Below are positions 22,077-41,612 of a DNA stretch of 64,000 nt, piece after piece; the stretch's first letter is position 1, and every line of letters starts with the position of its first letter. The notes under the pieces are model-generated. The model did not search any database. It saw only the letters and a program-made list of their open reading frames with translations, and was not told where the DNA came from. The stretch is from Butyrivibrio sp. Su6 (lineage in GTDB: Bacteria > Bacillota > Clostridia > Lachnospirales > Lachnospiraceae). The DNA lies in assembly GCF_900108105.1 (NCBI RefSeq), contig NZ_FNUR01000002.1:62001-126000 (forward strand), written 5' to 3'. The translations under genes and the position numbers were made by a program.

Positions 22077-24479
22077 ATGGGCGAGTTTTTTGAGTTTATT
22101 AAAAGTGCTGTTAAACAACTAATCAGTAACAAGACTCGTACGCTGATGACGATGCTTGGCATTATCATCGGTATTGCATCTGTGGTCATAGTAGTCACTA
22201 TGGGAAATGGTATGACGGATTTTCTGGTCAGAGAACTGGATAGCGTTATGCCTAATACCGGTGATATCTCAATGAATGTCAACAAAACAACAGAAAGAAT
22301 AACACGTGAGGATCTTAAGGAAGTAAAAGAGCGTGTTCCGGATATATATGGCATCACACCCGTTTTATCTCCTGAGTATGAGTCAGTAAAGATCAAAACA
22401 AAAAGAGGATCTTATCTGGCAGCTATCGTCGGCAGATCAGAGGGGGGACTTTATGCTCAAGGACCTGTAATGGCAGCCGGATCATATTTTACTGAGCAGC
22501 AGGTGGACAATGCAGCAAGGATATGCGTAATTAACGATACAGATGCTGACAAGATATTTGGAACCAGAAATTGTATCGGTATGGAAATTGAGATTACTAT
22601 TGGTGCAAAGTCTGCAACTTATACCGTAGTAGGACTGAGACAAAATACTGCTTCAGTAGTTTTTAGTATGTTCGATGATCCGGGGGATGAATATATGGCA
22701 TCTGTTGAAGTTCCATATACCTCCTACTGCGCAGATTACAACGTCAATGCCGATGCTTTGACCAGAGTCAGTGTATATGCACATCCTGAGCGCCTTTCAG
22801 AACTTTCGGAACAGGCAAGAAATGTCATAGCCCAGAACCATATGATAAGGGATAAAGAACTGATTCCGCTTAGAGTATATGAGGGACTAAGCGATGTTTT
22901 TGGCAGTGTCATGAACAGCGCTCGTGTGTTCATGATCCTGATAGCTATCATTTCATTGGTGGTAGGCGGAATCGGCGTTATGAACATTATGCTTGTCTCA
23001 GTTACAGAGAGAACAAGGGAGATAGGTATCAGAAAATCCATAGGTGCAAGGACAGGAGCTGTTATGATACAGTTTCTGGCAGAATCAGCTTTTTTGACCT
23101 TGCTCGGTGGAATCTTAGGAATTGGTGTTGGGCTTGCACTGGCAAAGATTGGCTGTAACTTTCTCGGTTTCAAATTTATTATTTCTCCGATGGAAATTGT
23201 AATGGCAGCTCTTTTCTCTGTCATAATAGGAGTCTTCTTCGGTTTATATCCTGCTGCTAAGGCTTCCGGAATGAAACCCATAGATGCTCTTAGAAATCTC
23301 ATGAGCGATGTCAAAAATACACGAGTAAGAGGTGGACTTACTATACTTGGTATTGTTATCGGTATTACAGCTGTTTTGGTTGTGCTTATCGTGAGTGATG
23401 GCTATGAGGCCCAGATGAAGGCAGATCTTAATAAGAGGGCAGCAGGCATAATTTTAAAAGTCGATCAGACCAAAACAGACAAGTTCATAACACGCGATGT
23501 TTTAAAAACGCTTGAGGATATATATGCCGGTGATATATATGGAATAGACATGCTTGAAGCTGTGGGCGGACCAGCCATGACCGTCAACAAGAGAGGAAAA
23601 GATGTGACTGCAGATCTTTTTGGTGATGGTGAGGCGCTTGGATATGAAAATGCCATGAAGCTCATTGTAGGAAGATACTACAGCTTTGAAGATATTTATG
23701 AGTGTAACAGGGTTTGTGTTATACCAGAGGTTACAGCAAAAGATATCTTTGGCTATACCAATGTTGTTGGAAAAGAACTGCCAATTACAATTGGACAAAA
23801 GTCATATAATCTGACAGTCGTGGGAGTTACTGAAAGTACGGACTGGGACCTTGATAATGCAGCTACAGACTGTTATTTTGTCTACTTGCCTTTCACTACA
23901 GCCAGCGAGTTTTTGGGAAAAAATCCGGATCAGGTCGTTGCTTCCTGTAAGCTGGTCCTTGGTCATGACAGTGTTGATGATGCCCTTAAGAGACTCTCTT
24001 CCATAGCAGAAAATTTGCTGGAGGTAAGAGGAAAAGGGGCAATAACCATAACAAGAGAAGATACCATGAGTGGATTTGATAAGATAATCAAGGCCATAAA
24101 ATATGTAGGTTCTGTTATAGCGGCTATATCAATAGTGGTAGGTGGAATTGGCGTCATGAATATCATGACTGTTACTGTAACGGAGAGAACAAGGGAAATA
24201 GGAATAAGAAAGGCTATTGGTGCAAGAACGGGATATATCATGCTCCAGTTTTTGGGGGATGCATCAAGGCTTACTTTTATAGGTGGTCTCATAGGTGTGG
24301 CACTTGGACTTGGCTTATCCTATGTGGCATGCATGCTCGTAGGATTTCCATTTGTGGTAGACCCTGTAATGGTGGTGCTTGTGTCGGGAGCGTCTGTTGT
24401 ACTTGGCATATTCTTTGGCATAAATCCGGCTTATAAGGCCGCAAAGCTCAAGCCAATCGATGCCCTCAGAACAGACTAA
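22077..24479 (+). CDS. Fused tandem MacB/FtsX-type ABC transporter permease
   Basis: An 800-residue protein that is two MacB-type permeases joined head to tail (about 1-405 and 408-800). Each half has an N-terminal membrane helix (TLMTMLGIIIGIASVVIV / GGLTILGIVIGITAVLVV), an extracytoplasmic domain, and a three-helix C-terminal part with the signatures GGIGVMNIM, RTREIGIRK and PIDALR. Normal MacB-type permeases have one such unit and pair with an ATPase; no ATP-binding gene is adjacent, so it would need a partner from elsewhere. It lies just before the RiPP promoter; a link to export or self-protection is only a guess. The Shine-Dalgarno (GAGAGG) is 11 nt from the ATG. Confidence 0.85.
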   Translation: MGEFFEFIKSAVKQLISNKTRTLMTMLGIIIGIASVVIVVTMGNGMTDFLVRELDSVMPNTGDISMNVNKTTERITREDLKEVKERVPDIYGITPVLSPEYESVKIKTKRGSYLAAIVGRSEGGLYAQGPVMAAGSYFTEQQVDNAARICVINDTDADKIFGTRNCIGMEIEITIGAKSATYTVVGLRQNTASVVFSMFDDPGDEYMASVEVPYTSYCADYNVNADALTRVSVYAHPERLSELSEQARNVIAQNHMIRDKELIPLRVYEGLSDVFGSVMNSARVFMILIAIISLVVGGIGVMNIMLVSVTERTREIGIRKSIGARTGAVMIQFLAESAFLTLLGGILGIGVGLALAKIGCNFLGFKFIISPMEIVMAALFSVIIGVFFGLYPAAKASGMKPIDALRNLMSDVKNTRVRGGLTILGIVIGITAVLVVLIVSDGYEAQMKADLNKRAAGIILKVDQTKTDKFITRDVLKTLEDIYAGDIYGIDMLEAVGGPAMTVNKRGKDVTADLFGDGEALGYENAMKLIVGRYYSFEDIYECNRVCVIPEVTAKDIFGYTNVVGKELPITIGQKSYNLTVVGVTESTDWDLDNAATDCYFVYLPFTTASEFLGKNPDQVVASCKLVLGHDSVDDALKRLSSIAENLLEVRGKGAITITREDTMSGFDKIIKAIKYVGSVIAAISIVVGGIGVMNIMTVTVTERTREIGIRKAIGARTGYIMLQFLGDASRLTFIGGLIGVALGLGLSYVACMLVGFPFVVDPVMVVLVSGASVVLGIFFGINPAYKAAKLKPIDALRTD

Positions 24480-24521: not shown

Positions 24522-24551
24522 TTGACAGCTTTTTTACACACGTAATAGAAT
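24522..24551 (+). promoter_or_regulatory. Promoter of the RiPP precursor genes
   Basis: TTGACA (24522-24527), 18 bp, TAGAAT (24546-24551), in AT-rich DNA 57 bp before the first precursor start. The near-consensus elements together with the following AGGAGG suggest strong expression. Confidence 0.7.
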
Positions 24552-24607: not shown

Positions 24608-24817
24608 ATGAACTTTACAAAAGAACAGATTGAGAAAGCTGCAAAATGTAAGAGTGTTGATGAGCTGTTAGAGCTTGCAAAGGCTGAAGGAGTAGATCTT
24701 TCAAAAGAAGATGCTGAGAAGTATTTTGCACAGCTTTCAAGTGGAGAGCTTAGCGTTGATGATATGACAGATATTGCAGGTGGAGCATGTTGTGGAAATG
24801 CCTGTGCACAGTGTTGA
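24608..24817 (+). CDS. RiPP precursor peptide 1, Nif11-like leader, core ACCGNACAQC
   Basis: A 69-residue peptide. The acidic, helical leader (59 residues, starting MNFTKEQIEKAAK) ends in a double-glycine site, DIAGG, and is followed by a 10-residue core containing four Cys. The leader resembles Nif11-type leaders processed by C39-peptidase exporters, and such an exporter is encoded 9 kb downstream. ATG 24608 was chosen over ATG 24602 because the strong AGGAGG (24595-24600) is 7 nt from the former and only 1 nt from the latter. The core sequence and position before radical SAM genes support a modified peptide product; its structure is unknown. Confidence 0.88.
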   Translation: MNFTKEQIEKAAKCKSVDELLELAKAEGVDLSKEDAEKYFAQLSSGELSVDDMTDIAGGACCGNACAQC

Positions 24818-24844
24818 TTTTTTTTCTGAGTAAGAGGTGTTGAA

Positions 24845-25084
24845 ATGAGCGAGATTAAAGTGTCAAAAGAGCTTTTTCAAAAGCTGGCTACTTGCAAAAC
24901 GGCTCAGGAAGTTGTTGATATGTGCAAAAAAGAAGCTATAGATCTTCCAATTGAAGACGCAGAGAAATTCATTGCACAACTTTCAAGTGAAGAAATCAGT
25001 CTTGATAGTGCAGAGAAGATTGCGGGTGGCGAGCCTTGTGCCGGTGCAGTATCTTTTGGTTGCGTTGGCCTTGGCATTTTTTAA
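24845..25084 (+). CDS. RiPP precursor peptide 2, Nif11-like leader, core EPCAGAVSFGCVGLGIF
   Basis: A 79-residue peptide with a 62-residue leader clearly homologous to that of precursor 1 (shared EDAEK..AQLSS..(I/L)S and KIAGG end) but an unrelated 17-residue hydrophobic core with two Cys. It starts 27 bp after precursor 1 behind AGAGGTG. Two substrates with one leader type suggest either a two-component product or a shared set of enzymes acting on different cores. Confidence 0.88.
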   Translation: MSEIKVSKELFQKLATCKTAQEVVDMCKKEAIDLPIEDAEKFIAQLSSEEISLDSAEKIAGGEPCAGAVSFGCVGLGIF

Positions 25085-25110
25085 GAATCGTAAATATCAA
25101 AAATAAAGCT

Positions 25111-25144
25111 AAACCCACATATGTATGAATATGTGGGTTTACTT
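25111..25144 (+). terminator. Attenuator-like hairpin between precursors and enzymes
   Basis: A perfect 12-bp inverted repeat, AAACCCACATAT (25111-25122) with ATATGTGGGTTT (25129-25140), closes a 6-nt loop and ends in a short T-run. This would let most transcripts stop after the precursors and some read through into the modification genes, a common arrangement in RiPP operons. Confidence 0.75.
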
Positions 25145-25161
25145 AGTATGTGGGGGTTGGA

Positions 25162-26682
25162 ATGGCAGATTACCATTTGAGCAGGTATGATATGATCCTG
25201 CCACTTGAAGAAGTGGAAGGAAAAGCTCTTTTAGCAAACGGAGTCTATGGAGCATATGATGTCGTTCCATTATCATGCATAGATAGTATTAAGTCAGGGG
25301 GAGAATGGCTGGATGAAGAGCTTTTTGAAAGACTTAAGAAAAGAGGCCATCTTGTAAAAGAGTCAGCTGAGGAGGAGCTTAAAAATGCGTCTCTTTTGAC
25401 CAGGTGCTGGTGGCTTTTGCCCTACAGGGCCATTATGGATTTAGTTATAATGCCAACTTATAACTGTAATTTCAGATGCGATTACTGTTATGAGCGCAAA
25501 CGCCTTGAAAAGGGTAATGAGTGGCTTGGGCATTCAATGAGCGATGAAGTTTTAGATGCGGTATTCGACCAGATTGATGAGTATATAAGGCAAGGCAGGC
25601 ACATAAGGAATGTCTTTTTATATGGTGGCGAACCACTTCTTAGAACCAACAAAAAGCAGGTGGAATACATAATAAACGCCTGCCATGACAGAGAGATCAA
25701 GCTTATATGCGTCACAAACGGATATGACCTAGATCAGTACATAGATATATTGGAGCCTGACTGGTTTGACTTTTTGCAGATAACTGTCGACGGCCCTAAA
25801 GAAGTTCATGATAAAAGGCGCTTTCTTGCCGGTGGTCAGGGCAGTTATGAGAAAATAATGAAGAATATTTCCCTTGTGCTTGAAAAGGGCCTGAGGGTTC
25901 ATCTTAGAACTAATATAAACAGATCTAATCTGGAGAGTGTAATGGAACTCCCTAAGGAGTTTGAAAAAAGAGGATTTTTAAAATATCCGAATTTCTACTG
26001 GTATTTCAAAGCTACAATCGGCTGCTTTGAAGATGATCCGAATAATGCCATAACTGATCTTGAAATGTATGAGACCATGAAGGCATTTGGAATGGATAAA
26101 AAAACAGCTCTGCAGCACTGTATGCTGTATGGCCAGATTACAAGAAGAGTTGGCGGTGCCATTGCGGCAGAGACCTATCCACCGCTCCGCCCTGCAGCTT
26201 GTGGCGCGGAGGCTGATATGTTGGTGGTTGATCCTGACGGTAAACTATATACCTGCTGGGATGTGGTTTCCATGGAAGAATACACAGTCGGTTACACAGA
26301 TCTTGAAGCAAAGCGTTTTCGTTTTGATCTTAATTTCCCGAAATGGAGGGGGCGGACCGCAGACAGACTGGAGAACTGCGCTGATTGCCCTATGATGATG
26401 GTTTGCGGTGGCGGATGTGCCATTGAAAGCGACCACGCCTACGGAACTATGGATAAAGGTTTTTGCGGGACCTTTAAAGAGGCTTTTGAAGAGGTTGTTC
26501 CGTATATATGTGGTAATAAATATAAGGAAAGTGGAGAAGATGAGCTTGGAGGAAGCTGGTACGACCTTATCGGGAATATAACAGATGAGGATAAAGAGAC
26601 ACTTTTTTCTACCATGTCACAGCTTGAAGCTCAGGATATTCTAAAAAAATACCTACGCAGATACAAAAGGATCTTTAGGTGA
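25162..26682 (+). CDS. Radical SAM/SPASM peptide maturase 1
   Basis: A 506-residue protein with an N-terminal region (about 1-95) of the type found in peptide-modifying radical SAM proteins, then the [4Fe-4S]-SAM motif Cys102-x3-Cys106-x2-Cys109 (CNFRCDYC), the FLYGGEPLL segment, and a C-terminal SPASM domain with CADCPMMMVCGGGC and a later FCGTF cysteine. Such enzymes form thioether (sactipeptide or ranthipeptide) or other carbon-centred crosslinks on Cys-containing cores. ATG 25162 is preceded by GGGG at proper spacing; the in-frame GTG at 25150 has no ribosome-binding site. First gene after the attenuator hairpin; precursor cores with Cys are its probable substrates. Confidence 0.9.
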   Translation: MADYHLSRYDMILPLEEVEGKALLANGVYGAYDVVPLSCIDSIKSGGEWLDEELFERLKKRGHLVKESAEEELKNASLLTRCWWLLPYRAIMDLVIMPTYNCNFRCDYCYERKRLEKGNEWLGHSMSDEVLDAVFDQIDEYIRQGRHIRNVFLYGGEPLLRTNKKQVEYIINACHDREIKLICVTNGYDLDQYIDILEPDWFDFLQITVDGPKEVHDKRRFLAGGQGSYEKIMKNISLVLEKGLRVHLRTNINRSNLESVMELPKEFEKRGFLKYPNFYWYFKATIGCFEDDPNNAITDLEMYETMKAFGMDKKTALQHCMLYGQITRRVGGAIAAETYPPLRPAACGAEADMLVVDPDGKLYTCWDVVSMEEYTVGYTDLEAKRFRFDLNFPKWRGRTADRLENCADCPMMMVCGGGCAIESDHAYGTMDKGFCGTFKEAFEEVVPYICGNKYKESGEDELGGSWYDLIGNITDEDKETLFSTMSQLEAQDILKKYLRRYKRIFR

Positions 26683-26699: not shown

Positions 26700-28133
26700 A
26701 TGTTTTTTTACTTAAAGCAACCATGGTGCCTGAGAGGTTATCAAAAAGACCTGATGCTTTTGGAAAAGTCCGGAGAATTGGAGCTTCCATACAGACTTAC
26801 ATATCCGCTCTTTGATCTTCTGAATAAATGCGATGGGGTAACTGATATTGAAATCGAAGAAGGCAGCAGGCAAGAGCAGGTTATAAAAAAATATATGGAA
26901 ATGGGAGTCCTTGAAAAGACGAACAAACCAAAAGAAATTGAAACCTGGCAGAAGTATAAGCACTTTGATAACAGGCGTATTCCTCGCGGCTTTTTTAGTG
27001 TGACAGGAAGGTGCAATTTAAACTGTATCCACTGCTTTTCCGCTACCGAATATGGGAAAGTTCCCTTTGAATTTTCTTTTGACCAGATAACTTATATTCT
27101 TGACCAGTATAAAGACTGTGGTATCAGAAAGCTCACAATAACAGGAGGAGAGCCACTTCTTCGCTCTGATTTTACAGATATCATAAAGGCCATGGCAGAC
27201 AGGAATATGGAAATGTTCCGCCTTTACACAAATGGAATGTTTCTTGATGAAAGGATAGTAAAAAGCCTTAAAGAAAACAGTTTAAATCCGCAGATTGTAA
27301 TAAGTTTTGATGGTGTGGGAACTCATGACTGGATACGAAATTATAAGGGAGCCCAAAAAAAAGCGGAGGAATCCATAGCATTTGCACTGGATAGCGGCTT
27401 TGAGGTGAAGGCCAATGTCAATGTGAATTCCAAGACGGCAGAGAGACTCCCTGAAACTGCCCACTATCTCTATGATCTGGGAATACGATCTATCTTTTTC
27501 ATAAGGACCAGTGAAGGCCCAAAGTGGATAAGAAGCGGATATGGAAGCCTGTCAGCAGAGGATTATTGGACTGTAATGCTTGAGGTAATGTCAAGTATCA
27601 GACAGGAGAATAAAAAAGACCTTGAGATCGTCTGGTTTAACGGCCCGACACTTACAAAAGGTATAACAGCAGAGGCGCTAAAAAGCGGATCTCCATACAG
27701 ATATGAATCTGAGGATATCAAAAATTCTGCCTGGTGCTTTAAAGCGATAAATGATCTTTATGTATCATCTACAGGAATGGTATTCCCATGTGATGGCTGC
27801 GAGGGCGTTGCACTTCAGACAGGATGGCTTGGAGAGAATTCCAATATTCTAAAAAGACCCCTTAGAGACATCATTAATGATTCGCATTATTCGGAAATTA
27901 TGAGAATGACTGCGGAAGAAGTAATAGAACATTCAAAAGACTGTAAAGGCTGCGACTGGGAAGAAAGGTGCCATGGCGGAAACTGTCGTGTGTGCGGAAT
28001 GCTCTATAAGGCAGTTGCAAACGGATATACCTTTGAGAACTGCGATATTGATATAAAACTTCCGGCGCCTTTAACATGTACTTTTTACAAAAAGGGTTAC
28101 TACGAGAAACTTCTAAAGATATTAGAGGAATAG
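26700..28133 (+). CDS. Radical SAM/SPASM peptide maturase 2 with RRE-like N-terminus
   Basis: A 477-residue protein. Residues 1-90 look like a PqqD-type winged-helix leader-recognition domain (FDLLNKCDGVTDIEIE, then YMEMGVLE). The radical SAM motif is Cys105-x3-Cys109-x2-Cys112 (CNLNCIHC), with TITGGEPLL following. The SPASM region has CDGCEG, CKGCDWEERCHGGNCRVC and a last Cys near LTCTFYKKG. GGGAGG lies 7 nt before the ATG and the gene follows maturase 1 after 17 bp. It presumably binds a leader and installs a modification distinct from maturase 1. Confidence 0.9.
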   Translation: MFFYLKQPWCLRGYQKDLMLLEKSGELELPYRLTYPLFDLLNKCDGVTDIEIEEGSRQEQVIKKYMEMGVLEKTNKPKEIETWQKYKHFDNRRIPRGFFSVTGRCNLNCIHCFSATEYGKVPFEFSFDQITYILDQYKDCGIRKLTITGGEPLLRSDFTDIIKAMADRNMEMFRLYTNGMFLDERIVKSLKENSLNPQIVISFDGVGTHDWIRNYKGAQKKAEESIAFALDSGFEVKANVNVNSKTAERLPETAHYLYDLGIRSIFFIRTSEGPKWIRSGYGSLSAEDYWTVMLEVMSSIRQENKKDLEIVWFNGPTLTKGITAEALKSGSPYRYESEDIKNSAWCFKAINDLYVSSTGMVFPCDGCEGVALQTGWLGENSNILKRPLRDIINDSHYSEIMRMTAEEVIEHSKDCKGCDWEERCHGGNCRVCGMLYKAVANGYTFENCDIDIKLPAPLTCTFYKKGYYEKLLKILEE

Positions 28134-36136: not shown

Positions 36137-38347
36137 TTGAGCACAATAAGTTTCAATACGGAAACTGAATTACTGTTTAACAGAATAGAGGAAGACGAGC
36201 AGAATCTTTCGGACGCTCTCATGGGTCTTACTGAAGTAGTTGAAGGTAAGAAGGTATATTCGCGCTTTGGAAAGAACTATCTTTCATCTGTAACAGCAGA
36301 TGTTGTGGAGCAGATTCTTTTATATTGCGGGAAAGCTGGAAGAGTTGACCCGGAAGAGTTCAGTGGTAAAACTGAGGAAGAAAGAATACATAGTCTGACC
36401 AGATTTTTTGATAAAAGAGGTCTTAGTATTCATGAGGTTCAGCTAAAAAAAGGGTGGTCGAAAAATGCTTTGGGACCATTGATCATTTCTGACAATGAAA
36501 AGAAAATATATGCTGCTATTCCAAACATATTAGGCAATTATCATTATGTAGATTATAAAAGCGGAAAAAGTGTAAAGATTACCAAAAAGAATGAAGAGAA
36601 GTTTGATAGAACAGGAATTTGTTTCCTTCGCCAGTTTGAGAAAAAGAAACTTGGTATAAAAGATCTTCTTCTGTTCATGGTGAAGTCTTTGCTTGTTTCT
36701 GATATCGTTATGGCCATTGTTCTTGGGCTATTTGCAATACTTGTGAGCCTTATAGTCCCGTTTCTTATCAGGTCTTTGTTCTTTAATCTTGATGATTATA
36801 AAAGCACCACTCCGATAATTGCTTATCTTGTATTTATGGTGTGTACATCTCTTTCTGTGACACTTTTCAGGACTGTCCAGTCACAGATGATCTACAGAAT
36901 GGCTTCGAAGGTAGATCGTGACACAAGGGCTGCGACAATGGAAAGAATGCTTTCTCTCCCCACAGATTTTTTCAAGAATCATTCAGCAGGTGCCATAGCC
37001 AAGCGAATGCAGATATTCCCGATGCTTTGCGAGAGTCTTATTACCGGAGTTTTTACGACCGGTCTTATGACTATTCTAAGTATCTTTTACATTTTCCAAA
37101 TATATAATCTTGGTGGAGATCTGTTTGTAGTGGCATCTGTGACTACAATACTTAATATTGGCCTGACATTTCTGATAATCAGGAAAAAGAGCGATGTGAA
37201 TGGCCGAAGGATTGAATATGCAACCAAAGATAATGCTATTTTGGTTTCTATGATGAATGGTATCCAGACCCTTAAAGTAACATCTTCTGAAAGGAGATTA
37301 TATACTCAGTGGCTCAAGATATTTAAGCAGGAAGCAGTAGCTGAGTACAGACCCGGATTCATTGTTGTATATGGTAACGTACTGGTAAATGCAGTCTCAC
37401 TTATAGGAATTCTTTTTACTTACATTGCTGCAAATCAGATGCAGATGTATACGAATTACTATATTGCTTTTACTGCACTTTACGGTATGCTCACGGGAGT
37501 TTTTACCCAGCTTCAGGACACAGTTCCTAATGCAGCACTGGTAGTACCTATACTAAAATCTTTGGAGATACTTTTTGAGGAGAAGCCTGAAGAAAGCGAT
37601 AATAATGAGCTTGAGCATGTGGTGCCAAACAGAATAGAGTTTGATAATGTTTCTTTTAAGTATGCGGAAAACCTGCCTCTTGTAATAAAGAACCTGAATC
37701 TTAGTATAAAAGAGGGAGAGTACGTTGCCATAGTTGGAAAAAGCGGCTGTGGAAAAAGCACGATAATGCGTCTCATTTTGGGATTTGAACAGTGCACTCT
37801 TGGTAGTATCTATATAAACGGAGTAAATATTAAGAACATAGATAAAAAGTCTCTTCGCAGAAATTATGGCGTTGTCATGCAGGACAGCCGACTGTTTTCG
37901 GGAACTATTTTAAAAAACATATCTATAGCTAATCCTCAAATGACAGAGGAAGAGGCTTGGGAAGCGGCGAGAAAAGCCGGAATTGCTGATGATATTGAAA
38001 ACATGCCTATGAAGATGCACACAATCGTGGATGAAAATGCATCCTGTATATCAGGAGGTCAGAAGCAAAGAATTATTATTGCCAGAGCTTTGGCGGGAAA
38101 TCCCAAACTTCTTTTGTTTGATGAGGCGACCAGTGCACTTGATAACATTACACAGAAGGTGGTATCGGATTCCCTTAGTGAACTGAAGTGCACAAGAATA
38201 GTAATAGCTCATCGACTCTCTACTATTAAAGATTGTGATCGCATAATAATGATAGATGATGGAAGTGTTGATGAAATGGGAACCTATGAACAGCTTATGG
38301 CTAAAAATGGCAAGTTCGCTCAAATGGTGGAAAGACAAAAGCTGTGA
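36137..38347 (+). CDS. Second ABC transporter of the NHLM system, no peptidase
   Basis: A 736-residue ABC protein with a soluble N-terminal region (about 1-170) lacking C39 catalytic residues, six membrane helices (about 185-440), and an ATPase domain with IVGKSGCGKST, CISGGQKQRIIIARAL and LLLFDEATSALD. It corresponds to the ATP-binding partner that accompanies peptidase-type transporters in NHLM clusters. The start is TTG at 36137 with GAGGTG about 7 nt upstream; no in-frame ATG is near. It is the last gene of the RiPP run. Confidence 0.88.
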   Translation: MSTISFNTETELLFNRIEEDEQNLSDALMGLTEVVEGKKVYSRFGKNYLSSVTADVVEQILLYCGKAGRVDPEEFSGKTEEERIHSLTRFFDKRGLSIHEVQLKKGWSKNALGPLIISDNEKKIYAAIPNILGNYHYVDYKSGKSVKITKKNEEKFDRTGICFLRQFEKKKLGIKDLLLFMVKSLLVSDIVMAIVLGLFAILVSLIVPFLIRSLFFNLDDYKSTTPIIAYLVFMVCTSLSVTLFRTVQSQMIYRMASKVDRDTRAATMERMLSLPTDFFKNHSAGAIAKRMQIFPMLCESLITGVFTTGLMTILSIFYIFQIYNLGGDLFVVASVTTILNIGLTFLIIRKKSDVNGRRIEYATKDNAILVSMMNGIQTLKVTSSERRLYTQWLKIFKQEAVAEYRPGFIVVYGNVLVNAVSLIGILFTYIAANQMQMYTNYYIAFTALYGMLTGVFTQLQDTVPNAALVVPILKSLEILFEEKPEESDNNELEHVVPNRIEFDNVSFKYAENLPLVIKNLNLSIKEGEYVAIVGKSGCGKSTIMRLILGFEQCTLGSIYINGVNIKNIDKKSLRRNYGVVMQDSRLFSGTILKNISIANPQMTEEEAWEAARKAGIADDIENMPMKMHTIVDENASCISGGQKQRIIIARALAGNPKLLLFDEATSALDNITQKVVSDSLSELKCTRIVIAHRLSTIKDCDRIIMIDDGSVDEMGTYEQLMAKNGKFAQMVERQKL

Positions 38348-40206: not shown

Positions 40207-40327
40207 CTCTTATTCAGAGTGGTGGAGGTACATAGGACCTATGAAGCCACGGCAACCCCTTGATCATTCAGGAAGGTGCCAACCTGAGCGTGCAATTCCG
40301 TTTTTTCGGACTACGAGCAATAAGAGG
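40207..40327 (+). promoter_or_regulatory. SAM-I (S-box) riboswitch aptamer of metK
   Basis: The P1 arms CTCTTATT (40207-40214) and AATAAGAG (40319-40326) enclose the S-box core: CAGAGTGGTGGAGG, GAAGCCACGGCAACC, and GGTGCCAACC followed by GAGC. It lies directly upstream of S-adenosylmethionine synthetase, so binding of SAM would shut metK off through the following terminator. Confidence 0.93.
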
Positions 40328-40421: not shown

Positions 40422-41612
40422 ATGGATAAATTTATTTTCACATCAGAATCAGTAACAGAAGGACATCCTGATAAAATATGCGATAACATTTCAGACGCAA
40501 TTCTTGATGCATGCATGGAACAGGATCCTATGAGCCGTGTTGCCTGCGAGACAGCAGCTTGTACAGGTTTCGTTCTTATTACAGGTGAGATCACAACAAA
40601 GGCTCACGTTGACTACGCTAAGATTGCCCGTGAGACAATCAAGGAAATCGGATACGACGATTCATCAAAGGGATTTGATGGAAACACATGCGCAGTACTT
40701 GTAGCTCTTGATCAGCAGTCAGCAGATATCGCTATGGGCGTTGACAAGGCTCTTGAAGCAAGAGAGAACCAGATGACTGATGAAGAGCTTTCAGCTATCG
40801 GTGCTGGTGATCAGGGTATGATGTTTGGTTATGCTACAAACGAGACAGATGATTACATGCCTTACGCTATCAGCCTTGCTCACAAGCTCACAAAGAAGCT
40901 TACAGAAGTAAGAAAGAACGGAACACTTCCTTACCTTAGAGCAGACGGTAAGAGCCAGGTTTCTGTTGAGTATGATGAGAATGGAAAAGTTAAGAGACTT
41001 GAAGCTATCGTAATCTCAACTCAGCATGATGAGAAGGTTACTCAGGAGCAGATCCATGAGGATATCAGAAAGTACGTTATTGATGCTGTAGTTGACGGTG
41101 CTATGGTTGATGATGCTACTAAGATCTACATCAATCCTACAGGCCGTTTCGTTATCGGTGGACCTCAGGGTGATGCAGGACTTACAGGTCGTAAGATCAT
41201 CGTTGATACATACGGCGGAGCTGCTCGTCACGGCGGCGGAGCTTTCTCAGGAAAGGACTGCACAAAGGTTGACCGTTCTGCAGCATATGCAGCTAGATAC
41301 GTTGCAAAGAATATCGTGGCAGCAGGCCTTGCAGACAGAGCAGAGATCCAGCTTTCATACGCTATCGGTGTAGCTGAACCTACATCAATTCTTGTAGATA
41401 CATTCGGAACAGGTAAGGTTTCTGATGAAGCTCTTACAACAGCAGTACGTAAGGTATTCGACCTTCGTCCTGCAGGAATCATCAAGATGCTCGACCTTCG
41501 TCGCCCTATCTACAAGCAGACAGCAGCTTACGGACACTTCGGCCGCAACGACCTTAACCTTCCTTGGGAGCAGACAGACAAGGTTGAAGAGCTCAAGGCA
41601 GCAGTTAAGTAA
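40422..41612 (+). CDS. metK: S-adenosylmethionine synthetase
   Basis: A 396-residue MAT of normal length that makes SAM from methionine and ATP. It opens [16 protein letters not shown], contains [12 protein letters not shown] and the [19 protein letters not shown] loop, and ends with the GHFGR segment. Expression is under the SAM-I riboswitch directly upstream. Cytoplasmic; it supplies SAM for the four radical SAM enzymes of the neighbouring RiPP cluster as well as general metabolism. Confidence 0.97.

Follow-up and report, generated by a model that had tools for sequence, protein, structure and literature searches.

The 64,000-nucleotide stretch of Butyrivibrio DNA analyzed here (the window) encodes two adjacent precursor peptides, A1 and A2, whose leaders are homologous and whose cores are unrelated. 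Both cores are constrained, the two genes occur together in all three genomes that carry either one, and the gene order around them is the same. The explanation that best accounts for the whole is a duplicated leader, modification by several enzymes, and products that work as a pair, to which we assign a probability of about 0.5. The producer is a rumen bacterium, and the predicted products are small secreted peptides made with one address tag and different cysteine-bearing ends.

We propose a hypermodified RiPP cluster whose precursors carry Nif11-like leaders. A2 is probably a duplicate of an A1-type precursor and would have retained the leader while gaining another core. The two genes would be cotranscribed, and a hairpin downstream of them would keep mRNA for the precursors more abundant than that for the enzymes. 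The predicted RRE of a radical SAM enzyme, rSAM1, would bind the leader, as perhaps would a second such enzyme, rSAM2. Cysteines in the cores would then probably be cross-linked as thioethers by rSAM1, a backbone thioamide would probably be installed by a YcaO protein, C-methylation would probably be carried out by a B12-binding enzyme, and a Dph6-like enzyme may amidate a carboxylate, for example at the C terminus. The C39 domain of an exporter would cleave after IAGG, and the exporter would secrete both products. The mature peptides would most likely work as a pair, and they are probably antibacterial.

Precursor genes and their cores

The A1 (24608 to 24817) and A2 (24845 to 25084) open reading frames lie head to tail on the forward strand and open a 13.7-kb cluster in which all of the downstream genes are on that strand. 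The A1 start codon, ATG at 24608, is preceded by AGGAGG at a suitable spacing, and the A2 stop codon ends at 25084. The A1 leader has 59 residues (24608 to 24784) and is followed by the 10-residue core ACCGNACAQC (24785 to 24817 with the stop codon). The A2 leader has 62 residues (24845 to 25030), is about 46% identical to that of A1, and precedes the 17-residue core EPCAGAVSFGCVGLGIF (25031 to 25084 with the stop codon). An earlier note on this DNA had read both leaders as ending in IAGG and the A2 core as a 17-mer with two cysteines, which is what the sequence contains. It had also described the leaders as aligning well and the cores as unrelated. Over 56 aligned positions the leaders gave a local score of 144, against a shuffled mean of 28.6 (standard deviation, 5.5; maximum, 59), and none of 5,000 shuffled alignments reached 144. 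The cores scored 17, at the shuffled level (mean, 16.5). The leaders are homologous and the cores are unrelated.

The same note had counted four cysteines among the ten residues of the A1 core. This is correct for the genome at hand but does not extend to the orthologues, where the third core residue (the second cysteine) is Gly in one and Ala in the other. Because that residue varies in both, the conserved motif is A-C-x-G-N-x-C-A-Q-C with three cysteines, and a four-cysteine motif was rejected.

A double glycine ends the leader in six of six precursors (A1 and A2 in three species), and a C39/NHLM export gene lies nearby, the combination that marks Nif11-type precursors. Against the TIGR03798 profile, the three orthologues of A1 scored 20.8 to 22.8 bits (22.8 for the window copy) and those of A2 18.3 to 26.3 bits. 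Because these values are under the cut-off of 32.3, we call the leaders Nif11-like rather than members of the family. A precursor at a distant locus, L048, passes with 37.1 bits; it adjoins an rSAM1 relative, and its leader is about 41% identical to that of A1.

Comparison with the orthologues in two other Butyrivibrio species gave dS values from 0.36 to saturated and dN values of 0.04 to 0.17, similar in leader and core. Against one of them, XPD2006, dS was 0.75 to saturated and dN was 0.09 to 0.16, the same in leaders and cores. Such low dN against high dS indicates that A1 and A2 are real genes; chance open reading frames were rejected on this constraint and on synteny. Where dS was measurable, dN/dS in the core was 0.12 to 0.22 for A1 and 0.12 to 0.13 for A2, values that rest on 2 to 4.5 nonsynonymous differences per core and so support constraint rather than a precise rate. 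Both cores, nearly unchanged in the three species, are by this measure under purifying selection, which points to specific products and not to a combinatorial library.

A sigma-70-like promoter, TTGACA-18-TAGAAT (24522 to 24551, forward strand; 11 of 12 matches), ends 57 bases upstream of A1; its hexamers are identical in AE2015, the second orthologous genome, and similar in XPD2006. Between A2 and rSAM1, a 13-bp hairpin (25110 to 25141, forward strand) folds in all three species. The XPD2006 hairpin has another sequence at the same place with its pairing kept, a C-G pair having become U-A. The hairpin is probably a partial terminator or an mRNA-stabilizing element. Because promoter and hairpin bracket the pair, A1 and A2 are probably expressed as a unit separate from the enzyme genes.

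Distribution and origin of the pair

Among 79 Butyrivibrio genomes, A1 or A2 was found at high similarity in only three, each of which carries both, and neither was found alone in any. AE2015 and XPD2006 represent separate Butyrivibrio species from that of the window genome, and their gene order is identical to that of the window. The earlier note had asked whether the core pairs always occur together, and in the three orthologous clusters they do; the pattern that it thought would count against a pair, only one of the two precursors, is not seen among the true orthologues. Two distinct conserved cores found always together in one cluster are what a two-component system would look like, in examples that are here few and related. 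With three clusters, two of them close (87 to 92% precursor identity), the co-occurrence is statistically weak and could reflect descent alone. Because the flanking genes differ between the window genome and XPD2006 (read from sequence as Tex-like versus GroEL-like upstream, and XylB-like versus another gene downstream), the conserved unit seems to extend from a MacB-like permease through a second ABC exporter.

When about 85,000 species were scanned with rSAM1, the Butyrivibrio orthologues were recovered, and all other relatives were at only 28 to 39% identity. Two of the distant loci, L047 and L048, have a single Nif11-like precursor each, with the cores YCPSDCGCRNQGYPFGECPDKK and AKTCYMIDGCSFKCGTLD, respectively. 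No A2-type core was found at the distant rSAM1 clusters L045, L047, and L048, which indicates that A1 and A2 as a pair are confined to the Butyrivibrio lineage. The A1 leader is 41 to 60% identical to leaders beside rSAM1 relatives, and the A2 leader 28 to 39%. A leader tree of about 60 columns places A1 beside A2 at moderate support (88/91), and the A2 branch is long. The simplest reading is that A2 is a copy of A1 that was duplicated within this lineage and whose core was then replaced, a reading and not a proof given the moderate support and the long branch.

Other loci differ in content. L045:52-9210, from a Selenomonadaceae metagenome-assembled genome, has at least eight Nif11-like precursors that differ in their cysteine-containing cores. 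It also has about four copies of rSAM1, one of which is apparently frameshifted. At L092:9330-12289 an rSAM1 relative is interrupted by a transposase-like open reading frame, and the cluster has probably decayed. Downstream of another rSAM1 relative, L046:5469-5675 is a 68-residue open reading frame with no recognized Nif11-like leader; its end is hydrophobic, rich in Cys, Gly, and Ala (NACGAAFNPCLGQACGAACIGITICIAGAHIAG), and reminiscent of sactipeptides. Weak leader matches occurred in 34 of the 79 Butyrivibrio genomes; those inspected were mostly another small protein, ending in GGLFKK and unrelated to this cluster. A protein of about 72 residues ending in AGGLFKK, weakly similar to the A1 and A2 leaders and with little after the double glycine, occurs in many Butyrivibrio genomes (L028:1489-1707, L031:1489-1707, L025:1459-1677, L081:8643-8888, and similar).

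Leader recognition and alternative readings

The gene after the hairpin encodes rSAM1 (25150 to 26682, forward strand), a predicted maturase with RRE, radical SAM, and SPASM parts. In its structural model (mean pLDDT, 84.6), three strands and then three helices, in the order seen in an RRE, lie ahead of the radical SAM barrel, with pLDDT of about 90 to 94 over residues 11 to 80. Pfam detected no domain in the N-terminal 100 residues of either rSAM1 or rSAM2, and the N-terminal part of the rSAM2 model was too poor for use. The best solved match to the rSAM1 model is CteB (5why; Z score of 24.1 and 3.7 Å over 375 residues, rSAM1 residues 11 to 456), at about 18 to 19% sequence identity. CteB makes thioethers and itself carries an RRE. 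In the rSAM1 alignment, C106, C110, and C113 are nearly invariant and C351, C369, C410, C413, C419, C423, and C439 are invariant, so that the features of a thioether maturase (RRE, CxxxCxxC, and SPASM cluster cysteines) are all present, the RRE as a prediction. Compared with the CteB-type enzymes of SCIFF peptides and ranthipeptides, rSAM1 is alike in domain composition and fold but distant in sequence, and an acidic residue to serve as acceptor is absent from the A1 core. The predicted RRE-like domain and the CteB-like fold make leader-guided action of rSAM1 likely. The rSAM1 relatives adjoin Nif11-like leaders with quite different cores, which together with the predicted RRE supports leader-directed recognition.

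The earlier note had offered either a two-component product or enzymes that recognize only the leader. Leader recognition fits the predicted RRE, but pure core blindness, with enzymes reading the leader alone and cores drifting freely, is very improbable. It would explain common leaders with unrelated cores, and it has precedent in the NHLP and Nif11-derived families, whose hallmark is a conserved leader joined to different cores (PMC2887384). The comparison of core variability across related genomes that the note had suggested, however, found cores nearly invariant between species with synonymous sites near saturation and only two precursors per cluster. A combinatorial library is thus disfavored: cores that cannot vary freely do not fit a simply core-blind system.

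The constraint is not decisive for pairing, since two peptides with separate jobs would also keep both cores. That A1 and A2 are independent products, sharing leader, promoter, and exporter but differing in target or function as in multi-precursor Nif11 clusters, is a serious possibility. Clusters with many cores exist, including L045, L070 with its several hydrophobic cores, and LahA1-9 (PMC6363468), and the single precursors at L047 and L048 agree with it; the cluster at hand, though, has exactly two cores, and each is fixed across the three species, unlike a diversifying library. We consider it improbable that just one precursor yields the product while the other has an auxiliary role as a regulatory signal, carrier, immunity, or decoy peptide using the same processing route. 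The greater distance of the A2 leader from rSAM1-associated leaders would suit such a role, since the enzymes that act on A1 may no longer act on A2, but A2 keeps IAGG and two conserved cysteines, and the constraint on its core matches that on the A1 core. We regard joint action of the two peptides as the likeliest interpretation, with a probability of about one half; it is supported by the co-occurrence, the dN/dS values, the shared promoter and hairpin, and the predicted RRE with its CteB-like fold. The wider explanation draws further support from relatives of rSAM1, rSAM2, the YcaO protein, and the B12 enzyme that adjoin GG-leader precursors of other clusters or the same set of exporter genes. 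If A1 and A2 do act jointly, they would provide a test of how one leader-guided enzyme set treats two unrelated cores.

Predicted chemistry, export, and known relatives

Beyond rSAM1, the cluster encodes rSAM2 (26700 to 28133), a radical SAM/SPASM protein with an N-terminal extension, and rSAM3 (28138 to 29262), a radical SAM protein without one; these and the genes that follow are on the forward strand. No close relative of rSAM2 was found in the plasmid collection. The Dph6-like ATP pyrophosphatase (29272 to 29922), with an SGGKD loop, passes the Pfam Diphthami_syn_2 cut-off (119 bits) but scores 100.9 bits against TIGR03679 (diphthine-ammonia ligase; cut-off, 197.3). It has a solved relative, 3rjz, and is 79% identical in XPD2006. 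The YcaO protein (29929 to 31647) is related to E. coli YcaO ("S12 accessory factor"), with 4q84 as its best solved relative; at 232.8 bits against NF040716 (cut-off, 700) it is a homologue and not a member. Likewise, the B12-binding radical SAM protein (31647 to 33404) is a homologue and not a member of the ApyD family (NF050148, 319.8 bits; cut-off, 750). Because the YcaO and B12 enzymes are far below these cut-offs, the chemistry is only expected by analogy and may differ from that of the characterized families.

We infer the chemistry and the assignment of enzymes to cores, like the duplication and the joint activity, from genes. Dph6 amidates a carboxylate, and the two cores offer only their C termini and Glu1 of A2, which makes C-terminal amidation a guess. 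Thioamidation of uL16 has recently been attributed to E. coli YcaO (PMC13063428), the nearest match to the window protein among curated families and solved structures; the substrate here is likely a peptide instead of a ribosomal protein. ApyD, the closest curated family of the B12 enzyme, is an aminopyruvatide C-methylase that beta-methylates Tyr to give beta-methyltyrosine (PMC10635010), but the window cores contain no Tyr. A search of open-license literature found no paper describing a Dph6-like enzyme that takes part in making a RiPP.

The cluster is ordinary in principle and unusual in composition. Like A1 and A2, the Nif11-derived precursors (N11P, TIGR03798), including LahA1-9 of Lachnospiraceae C6A11, from the same bacterial family as the window genome, have long double-Gly leaders, different cores, and a C39 exporter; LahT150 cuts such leaders ahead of diverse cores (PMC6363468). 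The window leaders differ in falling below the family cut-off, and two constrained short cores replace many diverse ones. In roseocin, one synthetase acts on two precursors with a conserved leader (PMC10027976), and other two-component lanthipeptides similarly join a conserved leader to two different cores per cluster, but through LanM lanthionine chemistry; no lanthipeptide enzymes were seen in the window cluster. Thuricin CD, described as the sole two-component sactibiotic, has two precursors (TrnA and TrnB) and two cooperating radical SAM enzymes (TrnC and TrnD) (PMC12093266). The window cluster likewise has two precursors and more than one radical SAM enzyme, but its cores are shorter with fewer cysteines, it adds B12-radical SAM, YcaO, and Dph6-like enzymes, and its two-part activity is a prediction. 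A paper on rumen bacteriocin clusters names neither Nif11, AE2015, nor XPD2006.

A two-component radical-SAM peptide would be rare. The full proposal, in which Nif11-like leaders, duplicated with a second core, direct thioether, B12-methyl, YcaO-thioamide, and Dph6-amidation chemistry onto cores of 10 and 17 residues, is tentative and on balance doubtful. If true, it would give a second two-component radical-SAM peptide beside thuricin CD and perhaps the first RiPP known to use a Dph6-type enzyme. Because the substrates are so short, the chemistry of the Dph6-like enzyme and the E. coli-type YcaO should be readily read by mass spectrometry.

Relatives of the enzymes occur in other combinations. 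Those of rSAM2 are found with HlyD, a C39 exporter, and a second ABC exporter (L088 and L089) or near a Nif11-like precursor (L080), and a B12-radical SAM relative in L036 adjoins a GG precursor with the core GCSLSIFRMC. The window cluster resembles a mosaic in which separable modification modules surround a single export cassette. B12-radical SAM and YcaO loci at greater distance, inspected for their substrates, belong to other clusters. L070:2352-14585, from a member of the Lachnospiraceae, has several GG-leader Nif11-like precursors with hydrophobic cores, two YcaO proteins, a methyltransferase-like protein, a radical SAM protein, and the same set of HlyD, C39 exporter, and ABC exporter. 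Since its YcaO module serves Gly/Ala-rich hydrophobic cores, there is a hint, and no more, that the YcaO in the window acts on A2.

The export genes begin with a short HlyD-like gene (33420 to 33932; TIGR03794 N terminus, 20.4 bits, below the cut-off), which has the same position in L070, L088, and L089. It is followed by a C39-peptidase ABC exporter of the NHLM ABC1 type (33923 to 36103; TIGR03796, 775 bits with a cut-off of 853; Peptidase_C39, 120.6 bits) and, in all three species, by the second ABC exporter (36137 to 38347; Pfam ABC_tran and ABC_membrane). Upstream of A1, a duplicated MacB/FtsX-like permease of 800 amino acids (22077 to 24479, forward strand; two copies each of Pfam MacB_PCD and FtsX) adjoins the cluster in all three species, uninterrupted and full length at 58 to 99% identity; other MacB-like homologues in the genus are about 45% identical or split. 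Its role in the cluster is probably in transport or immunity. Farther downstream, an ordinary SAM riboswitch (40207 to 40326, forward strand; RF00162, 75.1 bits) lies ahead of an open reading frame (40422 to 41612) that reads as S-adenosylmethionine synthetase.
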